64,000 nt of DNA from NCBI RefSeq assembly GCF_001021025.1, contig NZ_CP011541.1:1426001-1490000 (forward strand), in the 5' to 3' direction. This document shows, piece after piece, positions 15,575 through 54,234 of this stretch; position 1 is the stretch's first letter, and each line of letters begins with the position of its first letter. Source of the stretch: Corynebacterium epidermidicanis. GTDB taxonomy: Bacteria; Actinomycetota; Actinomycetes; Mycobacteriales; Mycobacteriaceae. Below the pieces are notes generated by a model. That model was given only the letters and a program-made list of their open reading frames with translations, did not search any database and had not been told where the DNA came from. The position numbers and the translations under genes were made by a program.

Positions 15575-16066
15575 TTAGCCTTTCGCGAGATTGGTATTTC
15601 GTGTGTCTAGCCAGGTTTGCAGAATTTCTACGGCAGCCACTTGGTCAATGATGTGTCTGGAATTCTTCGTCGTCCGCCCCGCCGCATGCAGCGAGTTCAT
15701 CGCGGCGACCGTGGTCAGGCGTTCATCTGCCATCCGGACCGGGAAATTGCCACCCATACGACGGTTGATGCGGAACGCGATTTCTTTAGCATGTTTTACG
15801 CTCACCGAGCCGTTTCCTTTAAGGTCGCGCGGCAAACCGACGACTACCTCAACGATCTCGTTTTCCTCAATGAGTTCGATGAGCCTGTCAATATCACCCT
15901 TATCCCGGTCCTTTAAACCAGTTTCGCGACACACAGTCTCAAGGGGCATCGCCAGCGTAGCCATGCGATCGGAATAGGCCACACCAATGCGGGCGGTACC
16001 TACGTCCACACCAAGACGACGCCCAGGGCCTGGGTCGTTCTCGCCGGGAATGTCGGGTTCTACCAC
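15575..16066 (-). CDS. ruvX: Putative pre-16S rRNA nuclease / Holliday junction resolvase-like YqgF
   Basis: The 163-residue RNase H-fold protein carries the family motifs [43 protein letters not shown] and [17 protein letters not shown]. YqgF proteins are implicated in 16S rRNA 5' processing and possibly junction resolution. The GTG start at 16066 has AGAGGA 9 nt upstream. It is the first gene of the leftward cluster that continues to nusB; a 730-nt non-coding stretch with a mobile element separates it from alaS. Confidence 0.93.
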
Positions 16067-16450: not shown

Positions 16451-16713
16451 GGGGTAAGTAAAGAAAAGTGTGTCTCTGCTGCGTGATTTCCGCAGCGTTG
16501 TGGGCCTGAAGCCAGTGTTTACTGTTGTCTGGGAGCCGTAGCCCGCTCGATGTCGTCCCTTCGGTGTAGTCGGACTACCGCTGTGGGATTTTATTCATTA
16601 AAAAACGCTGCTCTACGTAGTCGGACTACGCCGAAGCGACGACATAGCACTTATGCAGCACACCCGCACCGCCGACGACACACCGACCGGACACACTGTT
16701 ATTGGCTTAACCC
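16451..16713 (+). mobile_element. MITE-like 263-bp element, copy 1
   Basis: The element begins GGGGTAAGTAAAGAAAAGTG and ends in the complement of a related but worn repeat (GGCTTAACCC). Its interior holds two 29-nt arms (16550-16578 and 16617-16645) that pair around a 38-nt loop, each containing the palindrome GTAGTCGGACTAC. It shares length and layout with the copies at 32178, 36302 (inverted) and 53973. The 8-bp flanks differ, so a target duplication is no longer visible. It lies just beyond the alaS terminator. Confidence 0.85.
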
Positions 16714-16797: not shown

Positions 16798-19464
16798 TTA
16801 CAGCTTTTCCAGCTCGGACTTGACTGCCTCGAAACCTGCAGCGAGACCGTTCGCGTTAGTACCGGAACCTTGAGCCATATCTGGCTTTCCACCGCCACGG
16901 CCATTCACGAACTCGCCAACGACCTTGACTAGGTCACCGGACTTCACTCCTCGGCTCACCGCAGCAGGCGTAGCAGCAACGATATATGGTGCCTTTTCGC
17001 CGTCTTGGACGCCGAGGACGATAACAGCCGCCGAACCCGCAAGCTTGTCTTTCATCTCGGTAGCAATCGTGCGCAGGTCAGACGCTGCTACACCTGCGGG
17101 CAGTTGCGCGGCCACGACGCGGAATCCATTCACGTCGTGCGCGGCTTCCACATATTTCATGGACTTCGCAGCCAATTCGCGACGACGCAAATCTGACAGT
17201 TCCTTCTCCGCTTGCTTAAGCTTCTCACTCAGCTGCGCGATGCGTTCTGGAAGTTCCTCGGTCGGTGCCTTCATGCTCGCCGCTAGTCCAGCTGCCAAAG
17301 CCCGCTCCTTCGAGAGGTATTGGAAACTATCCAAGCCCGAGTACGCCTCAATGCGACGCACACCCGAACCCACAGAGGACTCGCCCAGAACCGCGATCGG
17401 ACCGACCTGCGCGGCATGATCGACGTGCGTGCCGCCACACAGTTCCATGGAGAACGGGCCACCAATTTCGACGAGGCGCACGCGGGAGCCGTAGTTTTCA
17501 CCAAAGAGAGCCATCGCACCCATGGCCTTGGCCTCATCAAGCGACGTCTCGATCGTATTTACTTGCCAGTCGGTATCGACCGCCTGGTTCGCAATGTATT
17601 CGATTTCCTTCAGCTGCTCCGGGGTCAGCGCCTCTGTGTAGTTGAAGTCGAATCGCAGGTATCCCGGCTTGTTCATCGAACCGGCCTGCACGGCCGTTGG
17701 GCCGAGAACCTGACGCAAGGCTGCATGGATCAGGTGCGTTCCGGTGTGCGCTTGGCGAGCCGCGTGTCGCCACTGCTTATCGACGCTAGCGGTGACACTG
17801 TGTCCGATGGCGAGGTCGCCCCCTTCGACAACCGCCTTATGCACCCAAAGCTTCTTGCCGATTTTCTGCACGTCGTTGACGACCAGGCGGGCGTCACCTG
17901 CGACGATCAAGCCACGGTCGCCGAGCTGGCCACCTGCCTCTGCATACATCGGGGTGACATCCAAAATCACTTCGACTTCTTGGCCGGCAGTGGCCACAGA
18001 GAGCTTTTCGCCACCTGCAACCATGCCCAAGACCTTGGCTTCGCTTTCTAGGTTGTCGTAACCAACAAAGTCTGTGGGGTGCTCGTCCACCCATTCACGG
18101 TAGATGCTGAGGTCGGTGTGGCCATGCTTCTTCGCTTGGGAGTCTGCCTTAGCGCGTGCCTTTTGTTCGGCCATCAGGGAGTGGAAGCCGGCTTCATCGA
18201 CCTTAAGTCCGGCCTCGGCGGCCATTTCGAGAGTGAGGTCGATGGGGAATCCGTAAGTATCGTGCAGCGCAAACGCTTCTGCGCCGTTGAGCTCAGTGCC
18301 TCCGGCAGCTTTCACTGCTGCCGCGGCGTCGTCGAAAAGCTTGGTGCCGGACTCGAGGGTACGCAGGAAGGCCTTTTCTTCGTTGATCGCAACGTTGAGG
18401 ATGCGTTCGCGGGACCCAGCGATCTCTGGGTAAGACGGGGTCATCGTGTCCATGATCGTGTTCATGAACTGGGCCATCGTCTCCCCCTGTGCTCCGAGGA
18501 GACGCGCGGAGCGGATGATGCGGCGCAGCAGTCGTCGCAAGATGTAGCCACGTCCTTCATTGCCGGGGGTAACGCCGTCGAGGATGAGCATCATTGCGGT
18601 GCGGGAGTGATCGGCGATGACGCGGAATCGAATGTTGTTTTGTGCGTCAGTGCCGTAGGTTGCACCAGTGAGCTGTTCAGCGATGTCGATGACTGGGCGC
18701 AACAAATCGGTCTCGTAGACATTATCTACGCCTTGGAGCAGGCAGGCGATGCGCTCCACGCCCATGCCGGTGTCGATGTTCTTCTTCGGCAGCGGGCCGA
18801 TGATCTCGAAGTTGTCTTTGCCGATGCCTTCGCCTCGTTCATTCTCCATGAACACCAGGTTCCACACTTCGAGGTAGCGGTTGTCATCGGCAATCGGACC
18901 GCCGTCTTTTCCGTACTCCGGGCCACGGTCGTAATAGATTTCGGAGCAGGGTCCGCACGGCCCTGGCACGCCCATCGACCAATAGTTATCGGCCATGCCT
19001 AGGCGCTGAATGCGCTCAGCTGGGACGCCGACTTGCTTTTCCCAGATCTCGGCAGCTTCATCGTCATCGAGGTAGACGGTGACCCACAGTCGCTCTGGGT
19101 CGAAACCGTAACCACCCTCGGAGATGGGGTTCGTCAACAGGCTCCATGCGTGCTTGATGGCGCCTTCTTTGAAGTACTGGCCGAAGGAAAAGTTACCTGC
19201 CATCTGGAAGAAGGTGTTGTGTCGGGTCGTGATACCCACTTCTTCGATGTCGAGGGTACGCACGCACTTTTGAATCGACGTCGCCGTGCCGTTCGGAAAC
19301 GGTGGGTTTTGTTGCCCAAGGAAGTAAGGCTTAAAAGGAACCATACCGGCGTTAACAAACAGCAGGTTGGGGTCATCCAGGATCAACGATGCGCTAGGTA
19401 CCGCGGTGTGCCCGGCGTTGACGAAGTGCTGAGTGAAGCGTTCCCGAATTTCATGGGTCTGCAC
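16798..19464 (-). CDS. alaS: Alanyl-tRNA synthetase
   Basis: AlaRS charges tRNA-Ala and edits mischarged Ser/Gly. The 888-residue protein shows the class II core at the N-terminus ([30 protein letters not shown]), the editing-domain zinc motifs [11 protein letters not shown] and [10 protein letters not shown], and a C-terminal region ending in the AlaRS-typical [12 protein letters not shown]. The GTG start at 19464 has GAGGA 7 nt upstream. It stands 95 nt after rarA and ends at its own terminator. Confidence 0.98.
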
Positions 19465-30768: not shown

Positions 30769-32145
30769 ATGACGATTAGCGCGATTGACCTGTTTAGTAT
30801 TGGCATTGGCCCCTCCTCCTCGCACACCGTCGGCCCTATGCGGGCTGCACGACGCTACATCTTGGAACATCCGACCAAGAAGCTGCACGTAGAACTGCGT
30901 GGTTCGCTCGCAGCAACCGGTAAAGGCCACGGCACCGACCGCGCCGTGGTCCTAGGGTTGCTCGGCTACGAGCCCCACAACGTTGATCCGCAGGCCGAGC
31001 CTGCGCCTGGCGCAGACATTCCTACCCATTCCACCCTGGAAAACGGTATCGAGCTAGAGATCATCTTCGATTCGAAAGCCCTGCCTCAGCACCCCAACGG
31101 CATGATTTTCCGCGACACGACACCCGGCGAACCCGCCAATGAGGTGCAGTTCTTCTCGGTAGGTGGCGGCTTTATTCTGTCCGCCGAGGAACTCGCGGAG
31201 CAAGAAAAGGATGGTGGACTGGGCTCGGGCGCAGCCACCACCAAGCGTGGCGACGACGTCCCCTACTACTTCACCACCGGTGCCCGACTCATCTCACTGT
31301 GCCACAAGTACGACAAGTCAGTCTCGGAAATCATGCTCGCCAACGAGATTGCGCTGCACGACGAAGCCAAGATCAACGAGCATCTAGATAACGTGTGGCA
31401 CACGATGAAGGAATGTGCGGAAAACGGCATTAAGACCACCGGGATTCTGCCAGGTGGCCTGAATGTCGCGCGACGCGCCCCGCACATTTACCAGCATCTC
31501 ATGGATCACAAGTCGCTCCAGGAAGGCGATGCCCTTCGCGCCATGGAGTGGGTCAACCTCTATGCACTGGCAGTCAACGAGGAAAACGCAGCTGGTGGAC
31601 GAGTTGTCACCGCTCCCACCAATGGTGCGGCCGGAATCATTCCGGCTGTGCTGCATTATTGCCGTGATTTCGTCGAAGGCTTCGACGATGCCCAGGCGCG
31701 TAAATTCCTGCTGGCAGCAGCTGCTGTTGGTGTCATCATCAAGGAAAACGCCTCTATTTCCGGCGCTGAGGTCGGTTGCCAGGGCGAGGTTGGCTCCGCC
31801 GCCTCGATGGCAGCTGCCGGCCTATGTGAGGTTTTGGGTGGCACTCCGGAGCAGGTTGCCAATGCTGCGGAGATCGCGCTGGAACACAACCTGGGCCTCA
31901 CGTGCGACCCGGTAGCGGGCCTGGTGCAGATCCCATGTATCGAGCGCAACGCCATCGCCGCAGTGCAAGCGATCAACTCGGCCCGCTTGGCTCGACTAGG
32001 CACAGGTATTCACCACGTCTCGTTGGATGACTGTGTGCGCACCATGGCGGCCACCGGCCGGGACATGCTGGACAAGTACAAAGAGACCTCTACTGGTGGC
32101 CTCGCTGTAAACATCGGACTACCGATGAACCACACGTTCTGCTAG
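30769..32145 (+). CDS. sdaA: L-serine ammonia-lyase (serine dehydratase), iron-sulfur type
   Basis: SdaA deaminates L-serine to pyruvate using a [4Fe-4S] cluster. The 458-residue single-chain enzyme starts [20 protein letters not shown], the family hallmark, and contains [20 protein letters not shown] and [20 protein letters not shown] with the cluster cysteines. ATG 30769 is used; an in-frame TTG lies two codons upstream. The 3' end is followed by a terminator hairpin that has been split by a MITE (32178-32440). Confidence 0.96.
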
Positions 32146-32169: not shown

Positions 32170-32177
32170 GGTGCCAT
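32170..32177 (+). repeat. 8-bp target-site duplication, left copy (GGTGCCAT)
   Basis: GGTGCCAT at 32170-32177 and again at 32441-32448 exactly bracket the MITE. A perfect 8-bp direct repeat at both ends is the expected footprint of transposition. Confidence 0.85.
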
Positions 32178-32440
32178 GGGTTAAGTAGAGAAAAGTGTGT
32201 CTCTGATGCGTGGTTTCCGCAGCGTAGCGGCCCTAAAATCGGTTGTTATTGTTTATTGGGGGCCGTAGCCCGCTCGATGTCGTCACTTCGGTGTAGTCGG
32301 ACTACCGCTGTGGGCTTTTATTCATTAAAAAACGCTGCTCTACGTAGTCGGACTACGCCGAAGCGACGACATAGCACTTGTGCAGCACACCCGCACGACC
32401 GGCGACACCCCGACCGGACACACTTTTCTTTACTTAACCC
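32178..32440 (+). mobile_element. MITE-like 263-bp element, copy 2 (with intact target duplication)
   Basis: The left end GGGTTAAGTAGAGAAAAGTG and the right end, read on the other strand, agree in 23 of the first 24 positions. The interior has the paired arms 32277-32305 and 32344-32372 around a 38-nt loop. It is flanked by the 8-bp repeat GGTGCCAT and splits a 16-bp terminator stem between sdaA and hisS. This is the best-preserved copy, and the element has no room for a transposase. Eight-bp duplications and GG-starting ends would suit an ISL3-type or IS256-type helper; that is inference. Confidence 0.9.
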
Positions 32441-32475
32441 GGTGCCATCCTAAAGATTCAGGATGGCACCCGGCC
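32441..32475. terminator. Remaining half of the sdaA/hisS terminator
   Basis: GGTGCCATCCT (32441-32451) still pairs with AGGATGGCACC (32460-32470). Joined to GGCCGGGTGCCAT at 32165-32177 by removing the element and one duplication, the stem becomes a perfect 16 bp. It probably served both convergent genes. Confidence 0.75.
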
Positions 32476-32498: not shown

Positions 32499-33776
32499 CT
32501 AATCTAGTGCCCGCCGCAGCTCAGCGACGACCTCATCAAGTGCTACGTCTCGCTGCTCATGCGCGGAGAGATCCTTGCAAGCGATCGAATTAGCTTCCAA
32601 TTCCCGGTCGCCGAGAACCAATGCGAAACGCGCCCCAGCGCGGTCAGCGCCCTTCATTGCGCCCTTCAGACCTCGTTCGCCGTAGGCCATGTCGGCGGAG
32701 ATCCCAGCTTGGCGAAGTTCGTTGATGATCGTCACCATGCGTCGTTTCGCCGCAGCTCCCATCGCCACGCCGTACACTGAGACGCGCGCGCCACTGGCAG
32801 CCTGCTTCTGTTCGGCTTGCAGAGCCAACAAGGCGCGGTCAACGCCGAGCCCGAACCCGACTCCAGAGAGCTCTTGGCCACCGAGTTGCGCCATGAGGCC
32901 GTCGTAGCGGCCGCCGCCACCGATGCCGGACTGGGCACCGAGCCCGTCGTGAACAAACTCAAAGGTGGTCTTGTTGTAGTAGTCCAGGCCACGCACCATG
33001 CGAGGGTTGATCTCGTAGGCAACGCCCATGTCGTCGAGGTGCGCGAGCACGGTGTCAAAGTGGGCGCGAGCGGCGTCGGAGAGATGATCGAGCATCAGGG
33101 GAGCATCAACGAGGAGCTCTTTCATTTCTGGGCGCTTGTCATCGAGAACGCGCAGCGGGTTGATATCTGCGCGACGGCGCGTTTCCTCGTCCAACGGCAG
33201 CTTGAAGAGGAACTCCTGCAGCTTTTCACGGTAGGCGGGGCGGCAGGTGTCGTCGCCAAGGCTGGTGAGCTCCAGCCGGTAGCCGGTGAGTCCAATGCTG
33301 CTAAAGCACCGGTCAGCTAGGGCGATCACCTCGGCGTCCAAGGCTGGATCATCGATGCCGATGGCTTCGACACCAACTTGCTGGAGCTGGCGATAGCGCC
33401 CTGCCTGAGGTCGTTCGTAACGGAAGAACGGACCAGCGTAGGTGAGCTTTACCGGCAGCTGACCACGATCCAGCCCGTGTTCGATCACCGCACGCATAAC
33501 GCCAGCGGTGCCCTCTGGACGCAAGGTGACGCTGCGGTCTCCACGATCGGCGAAGGTGTACATCTCTTTGCTCACCACGTCGGTAGACTCCCCGACTCCT
33601 CGGGCAAACAAGCCGGTTTCCTCGAAGATCGGCAGCTCGATATGCTCGTAGCCCGCCAGGTGGGCCTGATGCGCAAAGCCATCGCGCACAGCTAGGAACT
33701 CTGGAGACACTGGTGGCACATAGTCAGGTACGCCTTTGGGCGCCTGGAACGGCTGAAACTTTCGAGAGGTAGTCAC
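32499..33776 (-). CDS. hisS: Histidyl-tRNA synthetase
   Basis: HisRS charges tRNA-His. The 425-residue class II enzyme has the start [17 protein letters not shown], the motif 2 region [17 protein letters not shown] and [20 protein letters not shown], the histidine-binding loop [15 protein letters not shown], and motif 3 [15 protein letters not shown]. It is convergent with sdaA. It follows a metallo-hydrolase gene by 55 nt, the same order as in mycobacteria (ppi, glyoxalase II-like, hisS). Confidence 0.97.
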
Positions 33777-36301: not shown

Positions 36302-36564
36302 GGGTTAAGTAAAAAAGAGTGTGTCCGGTCGGCGTGTCGCCGGCCGTGCGGGTGTGCTGCACAAGTGCTATGTCGTCCCTTCGGCGTAGTCCGACTACGT
36401 AGAACAGCGATTTTTAATGAATAAAAACCCACAGCGGTAGTCCGACTACACCGAAGGGACGACATCGAGCGGGCTACGGCTCCCAGACAACCGTAAATAC
36501 TAGCTTCAGACCCACAACACTGCGGAAAACACGCAGCAGAGACACACTTTTCTATACTTGACCC
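36302..36564 (-). mobile_element. MITE-like 263-bp element, copy 3 (inverted)
   Basis: This copy runs opposite to the other three. Its ends are GGGTTAAGTAAAAAAGAGTG on the plus strand and GGGTCAAGTATAGAAAAGTG on the minus strand. The paired arms are 36370-36398 and 36437-36465, again with a 38-nt loop. The flanking octamers GAAAGCTC (36294-36301) and GAAAATTC (36565-36572) match in 6 of 8 positions, consistent with a decayed target duplication. It lies between two terminators, and the next 140 nt hold nothing I recognise. Confidence 0.87.
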
Positions 36565-53972: not shown

Positions 53973-54234
53973 AGGTTAAGTAATGCAAAGCGCGTCTCAG
54001 ATTCGTGTTTTCCGCACCGAAGGAGTCCTAAACCCAGTATGCGTTGTTTCCGGAGAGCTATAGGCCGATCGCCGTCCCCTCGGTGTAGTCGGACTACCTT
54101 CGTGGAGTGTTATTCAACCAAACAGGCAGATCTTCGGAGTCGGACTACACCGAAACGACGACATAGCACATGTGCAGCAAATCGGCCTGGTCGGCTACCC
54201 GTCGACCGAACCCACTCTCCTTGACTAAGCACCC
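53973..54234 (+). mobile_element. MITE-like 262-bp element, copy 4 (diverged)
   Basis: This is the oldest-looking copy. It begins AGGTTAAGTAATGCAAAGCG and ends CCTTGACTAAGCACCC, still recognisable as the shared ends. The central stretch keeps GTGTAGTCGGACTACC (54084-54099) and GAGTCGGACTACACC, and ends in the shared CGACGACATAGCAC. It starts on the base after the DUF3817 stop codon. No flanking duplication is seen. Despite many substitutions, the internal open frame is still uninterrupted. Confidence 0.78.

Follow-up and report, generated by a model that had tools for sequence, protein, structure and literature searches.

What kind of element is the 263-bp repeat that lies between two convergent genes at 32178..32440, what moved it there, and where does its interior come from? 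The window, by which we mean the whole stretch of 64,000 nucleotides analysed here (positions 1426001-1490000 of the one-contig, 2,692,072-bp genome of Corynebacterium epidermidicanis), holds four such elements, and on reading the sequence we found each of them at the place and with the ends that an earlier note had reported, namely at 16451, 32178, 36302 (inverted) and 53973. Copy 1 (16451..16713, + strand) lies between ruvX (15575-16066, - strand) and alaS (16798-19464, - strand); copy 2 (32178..32440, + strand) separates the convergent genes of an sdaA-type L-serine ammonia-lyase (30769-32145, + strand) and hisS (32499-33776, - strand); copy 3 occupies 36302..36564 on the - strand; and copy 4 (53973..54234, + strand), located between a DUF3817 gene and pdxS, is an older, diverged member of the group that is 76% identical to the consensus. 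Copy 2 begins with a 24-bp terminal inverted repeat of the IS1249 type (32178..32201, + strand) and ends with its 24-bp counterpart (32417..32440, - strand), and the exact 8-bp target duplication proposed for it, GGTGCCAT, is indeed present on the left (32170..32177) and on the right (32441..32448). The duplication is imperfect at copy 3 (6/8 bases) and lacking at copies 1 (2/8) and 4 (4/8).

The family proved to be larger than the four copies first noticed. A core pattern of the element occurs at 63 places in the genome and its backward control at none, the 24-bp terminal repeat occurs at 73 places within 3 mismatches (control, 0), and nhmmer run on sequence fetched around those places returned 78 non-overlapping hits, from which we count at least 53 MITE copies, 49 of them full-length and four slightly truncated (406583, 740190, 913210 and 1749736). 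The full-length copies are 63-97% identical to the 263-bp consensus and span 249-271 bp; the fixed length that had been ascribed to every copy does not hold, and at this size none has room for a transposase, as had been pointed out. Their intergenic position is borne out by the finding that 0/52 classified copies reach more than 30 bp into a called gene (the gene calls were home-made, and 1 of the 53 lies at a locus edge). Listing the flanking octamers of the 49 full-length copies revealed exact duplications of 8 bp in 16 and of 7 bp in two, and none of 4-6 or 9-12 bp. Seven or eight of the 8 flanking bases agree in 22/49, whereas 2000 re-pairings gave 0.5 such copies on average and never more than 4, which rules out chance as the source of the 8-bp duplications; fewer than 7 of the 8 match in the other 27. 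The gene gaps that hold the 52 classified copies are convergent in 21 cases, tandem in 26 and divergent in 5, compared with 47, 152 and 70 among the 269 gene junctions in these loci, counting those that bear a MITE. Gene-less, bounded by 24-bp terminal inverted repeats, flanked by an 8-bp duplication, dispersed, intergenic and present in many copies, the 263-bp element is a MITE, and we regard this class assignment as firm.

A few copies have surroundings of their own kind. Those at 740165-740429 (L045 5965-6229) and 1749736 (L063, about 2537) are without a left repeat of their own and abut an inverted terminal repeat, which for the former is the right end of the host's IS1249 relic described below; the copy at 2171610-2171872 has a 79-bp perfect direct repeat on both sides; and copies 18820 and 731413 have 75 identical bp in common in their right flanks. 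These 79-bp repeats and 75-bp flanks are perhaps tRNA genes. Copy 1 of the window (genome 1442451-1442713) and the copy at 208708-208970 resemble each other more than any other two of the 49, their 95.4% being the highest pairwise identity between full-length copies; the two are 96% identical over 50 bp of left flank and differ in their right flanks, as though one copy had taken some adjacent DNA along when it moved.

The ends of the MITE point to the insertion sequence that moved it. Three elements of 1403-1411 bp in other genomes of the genus (L003, L007 and L008) carry both MITE-type ends; the genes of L007 and L008 encode IS1249-family transposases (NF033544, 508 and 513 bits at a cut-off of 300), that of L003 is split, and 8 of the 9 loci first drawn by their common ends (L002-L010) contain an IS1249-type transposase reading, complete or in part, L009 ending at a contig edge. 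Over 45 bp of the consensus, made up of the right terminal repeat and about 21 bp inside it, identity to the right ends of three IS1249-type elements is 87-93%. Exact 8-bp duplications also flank 49/59 IS1249 sites in other species, a set of distinct sites obtained from 79 loci by dropping 17 without both ends, 2 duplicates and 1 without a transposase match, and in which one site (L004) has doubtful ends. In corynebacteria, Tn5432 is bounded on either side by IS1249 (PMC8304765). The MITE is firmly assigned to the IS1249-type IS of the IS256 family, its likely helper, and of the ISL3- and IS256-type helpers that the earlier note had offered, the latter was the right one, more specifically its IS1249 branch.

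With a probability of about 0.88, we read the family as a non-autonomous IS1249-type derivative with a captured palindrome, moved in trans, settled beside terminators and spread after gene loss. The MITE would accordingly consist of an IS1249 left end, a captured palindrome of about 124 bp (consensus 85-212) and an IS1249 right end (213-263), the origin of the left end being apparent in its 24-bp repeat and presumed for positions 25-84. A palindrome would have entered an IS1249 between its gene and its right end, a deletion would then have removed the transposase gene, and the short form would have spread, IS1249 transposase acting in trans to move it and to make the 8-bp duplications. Movement in trans with 8-bp duplications had been proposed before, and the 16/49 exact duplications and IS1249-type ends with the same duplication length, both of which are observed, argue for it. 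Three long forms of about 566-714 bp (~877075-877711, 1729602-1730315 and 1856149-1856714) carry IS1249-type ends together with the palindrome, which sits before the right end and has lost part of its length in two cases, and match the transposase N-terminus weakly (E 2.5e-4 to 0.04); they are likely intermediates of the origin of the MITE. The case for the IS1249 leader as the source of positions 25-84 of the MITE is weak, their likeness to the IS1249 left ends of other species not being significant (median z 0.2, best 2.6).

Like the copy number and the terminator-facing position discussed below, the nature of the interior goes beyond the earlier note, as it is a palindromic repeat separate from the MITE that also recurs without IS1249 ends. 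A covariance model (R1), built from 18 units of which some were taken from MITEs, gave at least 150 matches in the host genome, both strands counted and 150 of 519 candidates scored. In the window, R1 marks units in copy 1 (16535..16659, + strand, 119.9 bits), copy 2 (32262..32386, + strand, 120.7 bits), copy 3 (36356..36480, - strand, 124.5 bits) and copy 4 (54057..54178, + strand, 99 bits), those in copies 2 and 4 being among the units used to build it. All 29 non-MITE units examined are 122-125 bp long (one of them, the standalone unit 2006392, after hand-trimming from 129 to 124 bp), and pairing in register from both ends extends over 31-39/44 positions in 28 of them and over 16/44 in one. 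Stem pairs 22 (CG in 18 units, AT in 10), 36 (CG in 17, AT in 10) and 38 (GC in 17, TA in 9) vary on both sides, and position 4 and some others are mostly mismatched.

Subtracting from 30 listed units the 7 that lie in IS1249-ended elements and the 1 split by an IS leaves a standalone set of 22, or about 20 independent cases because 104955, 105253 and 105502 lie in one local duplication. The 22 have sharp ends at which conservation stops, and no flanking duplication of more than 3 bases. By their fourth base, one end is of the T kind and the other of the G kind in 19/22 (10.8 expected, p 4e-4), and in 15/22 the end hexamers are exactly GCTTCA and GCTGCA. A minisatellite (unit 10-60 bp) is found within 200 bp of 15/22 standalone units as opposed to 6/49 MITEs and 4/88 control points, and the two flanks of standalone units differ in composition, with on average an excess of G in one (mean skew +0.18) and of C in the other (-0.25), the skew of MITE flanks being about 0. 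At L029 2499-3417 and in L040, L050, L104 and L107, palindromes stand between minisatellites whose unit sequence differs from one side to the other. We also note that the segment of the genome from 0.94 to 1.66 Mb contains MITEs and no standalone palindrome among the matches listed (150 of 519 candidates scored). A REP/RAYT system was discarded as a candidate, the Y1 transposase PF01797 having 0 matches in the genome though it was matched in 5/14 control genomes. A rather unlikely reading is that the palindrome is itself a mobile unit, of an undescribed kind, that enters or creates minisatellites, one copy of which joined an IS1249 to yield the MITE, with its arms maintained in the dispersed copies; its near-constant length, its sharp ends, its two types of end (GCTTCA and GCTGCA, which give a mismatch at a fixed stem position) and the lack of a target duplication would fit. 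Such a unit might be transferred as a single strand folded on itself.

Within the MITE, divergence is lowest in the arms of the palindrome, which change slowly, with selection, homogenisation and low mutation as candidate causes. In the 38 younger copies the arms diverge by 1.5% and the left part by 10%, and private changes affect 6/2204 arm cells vs 97/7771 elsewhere; among the 37 copies found by their terminal repeats, taken without the aberrant copy 655584, the corresponding figures are 12/2146 and 49/3194 (p 9e-4). The statement that old copies keep their arms is biased because 11/49 copies were not found by terminal repeats, and more weight is given here to the test on copies that were. 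Slowly changing arms, and the 21/52 classified copies in convergent gaps, would also suit a repeat that is mainly a structured element functional in the host, spread by IS1249 ends and now kept for a useful hairpin, whether it acts at RNA ends, in organising the chromosome or in binding protein. We hold this to be rather unlikely. The test for constraint on the arms weakens with copy 655584 included (23/2204 vs 57/3277, p 0.04), and homogenisation between copies would serve as an explanation too. An excess of pair-keeping changes among the 38 younger copies (28/78, p 1.5e-4) was set aside, as it vanished when each distinct change in 48 copies was counted once (GT 11, AC 12, WC 4 and other 44, out of 42, 42, 6 and 180 possible), so that selection on pairing as such is unsupported. 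Finally, copy 2 and its surroundings hold no promoter-like site and one terminator-like site (0.5 expected), and Rfam at gathering score gave 0 matches in the window and 0 in 16 palindrome-bearing loci, which also speaks against a known structured RNA family, the alternative raised at the outset.

Where the MITE inserts provides a further link to IS1249. A home-made terminator detector, which requires an A-tract and whose cut-offs were set after seeing MITE pre-insertion sites, found terminators pointing at the MITE and starting within 70 bp of its right end in 30/49 copies and of its left end in 15/49 (Fisher p 0.004); the same detector was positive at 92/549 random intergenic points and at 54/234 points located 25-130 bp past gene ends (p 5e-7 vs the MITE right end). 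The IS1249 sites of other species served as an independent check: a terminator faces the right end at 35/59 and the left end at 16/59 (p 7e-4), 28 sites being positive on the right only and 9 on the left only (p 0.003), compared with 49/337 points drawn at random from these loci. With the score at its strictest, the right/left difference is gone for IS1249 (9 vs 8) and stays for the MITE (11 vs 3), and insertions that share a genome are not independent of each other. Given the right-end bias in both data sets, a preference and an orientation common to the MITE and its presumed helper are indicated, and we consider it well supported that both prefer terminator-adjacent sites with the right end facing the hairpin. 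The MITE would then have inserted beside intrinsic terminators as IS1249 does, target choice being the putative cause of what is a statistical tendency.

Copies 1, 3 and 4 of the window score as terminator-positive on the right. Copy 2 is not scored as terminator-facing because the hairpin that abuts its right end, GGTGCCATCCT-8 nt-AGGATGGCACC (32441..32470), has no A-tract; in the rebuilt site, this hairpin and the left flank formed one longer palindrome before insertion. At several others of the 22 rebuilt pre-insertion sites a terminator-like hairpin begins at the duplication, and the 22 fold more stably than control (-28.3 vs -23.0 kcal/mol, p 0.006); the folding energies of right and left MITE flanks differ weakly (p 0.07). 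Insertion inside a stem was dismissed as a general rule, pairing in the duplicated 8 bp being that of the control (0.60 vs 0.57). Closeness to terminators might alternatively result from selection against insertion elsewhere, in promoters or genes, with no target choice involved, and the rarity of MITEs in divergent gaps (5/52, for 70 of 269 junctions) and their frequency in convergent ones (21/52, for 47 of 269) would agree with this. Selection on position alone, however, does not account for the asymmetry of both the MITE and IS1249, in which terminators face the right end roughly twice as frequently as the left one, and a terminator was present at only 54/234 of the points past gene ends; we find this explanation doubtful.

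Of 242 genomes of the genus, 148, the host included, have IS1249-type matches, which are weak in some cases. The only close reading found in the host genome (739381-740119) has internal stops and is a broken relic, the right end of which runs directly into a MITE without a left repeat. Since this reading is broken and no pair of full-length copies is more than 95.4% identical, the MITE family is probably immobile in this genome at present. The best named transposase matches on plasmids are about 60% identical and annotated IS1249, so the helper is to be seen as a relative of IS1249 proper. One of two further weak matches in the host is a transposase with an open 450-aa gene that belongs to a different branch of the IS256 family (NF033543, 393 bits; genome ~2038135-2039583, L070 2736-4184), and the IS concerned lies inside a standalone palindrome, where it splits GTAGTCGGACTAC and has a 9-bp duplication, TAGTCGGAC. 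That some other IS256-type or ISL3-type element with coincidentally the same ends was the helper is highly improbable, for although this open gene of another IS256-family branch is present, the ends of its element (GAGGGTGTCAGATGG..) differ from those of the MITE, and the loci with MITE ends yield IS1249-type readings, which bear on an ISL3-type helper indirectly.

The IS1249 derivative thus described was found whole in its own genome only. In blastn, 36/151 genomes of the genus gave a match (at most 5 candidates scored per genome), the other 35 matching pieces of 24-52 bp that nearly all lie at the element ends. The core pattern, sought in 242 genomes, has its 63 places in the host and one 3-mismatch place in each of three others, which we take as chance because R1 finds nothing outside its own genome (241 other genomes, stricter filters, 14 candidates scored per genome listed); the search of other genomes of the genus to which the first description pointed thus recovered the element in none of the 241. 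Plasmid and phage records contained nothing resembling the MITE, the core pattern was absent from genome_contigs, and palindrome patterns were absent from genome_contigs, where they represented one of two arm types, and from viral_contigs, the own or very near records being perhaps left out of these collections. Empty sdaA-hisS sites, likewise anticipated, do exist in other species: in the five readable of 11 orthologous loci, matched pieces are 98-171 bp apart as opposed to 456-518 bp in the window, and the element is therefore absent from those five. The flanking genes of the nearest orthologous locus are 77% identical, and these empty sites are at species level; like the lack of an Rfam match, they favour the reading of the earlier note.

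Compared with known systems, the MITE resembles IS1249 (IS256 family; NCBIfam NF033544) in its 24-bp ends, its right end of about 45 bp, its 8-bp duplications and its terminator-facing position, and differs from it in having no transposase gene and in carrying a palindrome for which R1 finds no match in other genomes of the genus, IS1249-bearing ones included. Bacterial MITEs such as RUP, BOX, ERIC and QMITE (PMC10969869, PMC3049150) and MITEAba12 (PMC6382973) are similarly short, gene-less, intergenic, foldable and present in many copies, with inverted ends and target duplications; unlike them, the present element is IS1249-derived and has a separate repeat as its interior. The main text of a review of bacterial MITEs mentions neither IS256 nor Corynebacterium. 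Among the titles found on IS insertion beside terminators, none deals with IS1249, and the nearest precedent among them is that of IS elements reported to target REP palindromes, among them ISRm5 of the IS256 family (PMC1525189). The IS256-family element that lies inside a palindrome at ~2038135-2039583 recalls this situation, whereas the palindromic unit described here, in contrast to REP as presented there, measures about 124 bp, has two kinds of end and occurs in a genome without a Y1 transposase match. Pneumococcal SPRITE repeats (PMC3049150) are likewise hairpin repeats near gene 3' ends but are themselves terminator-like, whereas the MITE adjoins a separate terminator. Neither a MITE of IS1249 nor this palindrome was found in print in the open-access library searched, and the family is new to us.

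A terminator-adjacent, oriented preference would go some way to account for the places in which IS1249 and its passengers come to lie, and whether an IS256-type transposase chooses its targets becomes a question that can be tested. What makes an otherwise ordinary MITE unusual is a hairpin that also exists alone. Sharply bounded and present in 1/242 genomes searched, the palindrome is well suited to the question of how such repeats originate in bacteria and whether they come to serve their host.
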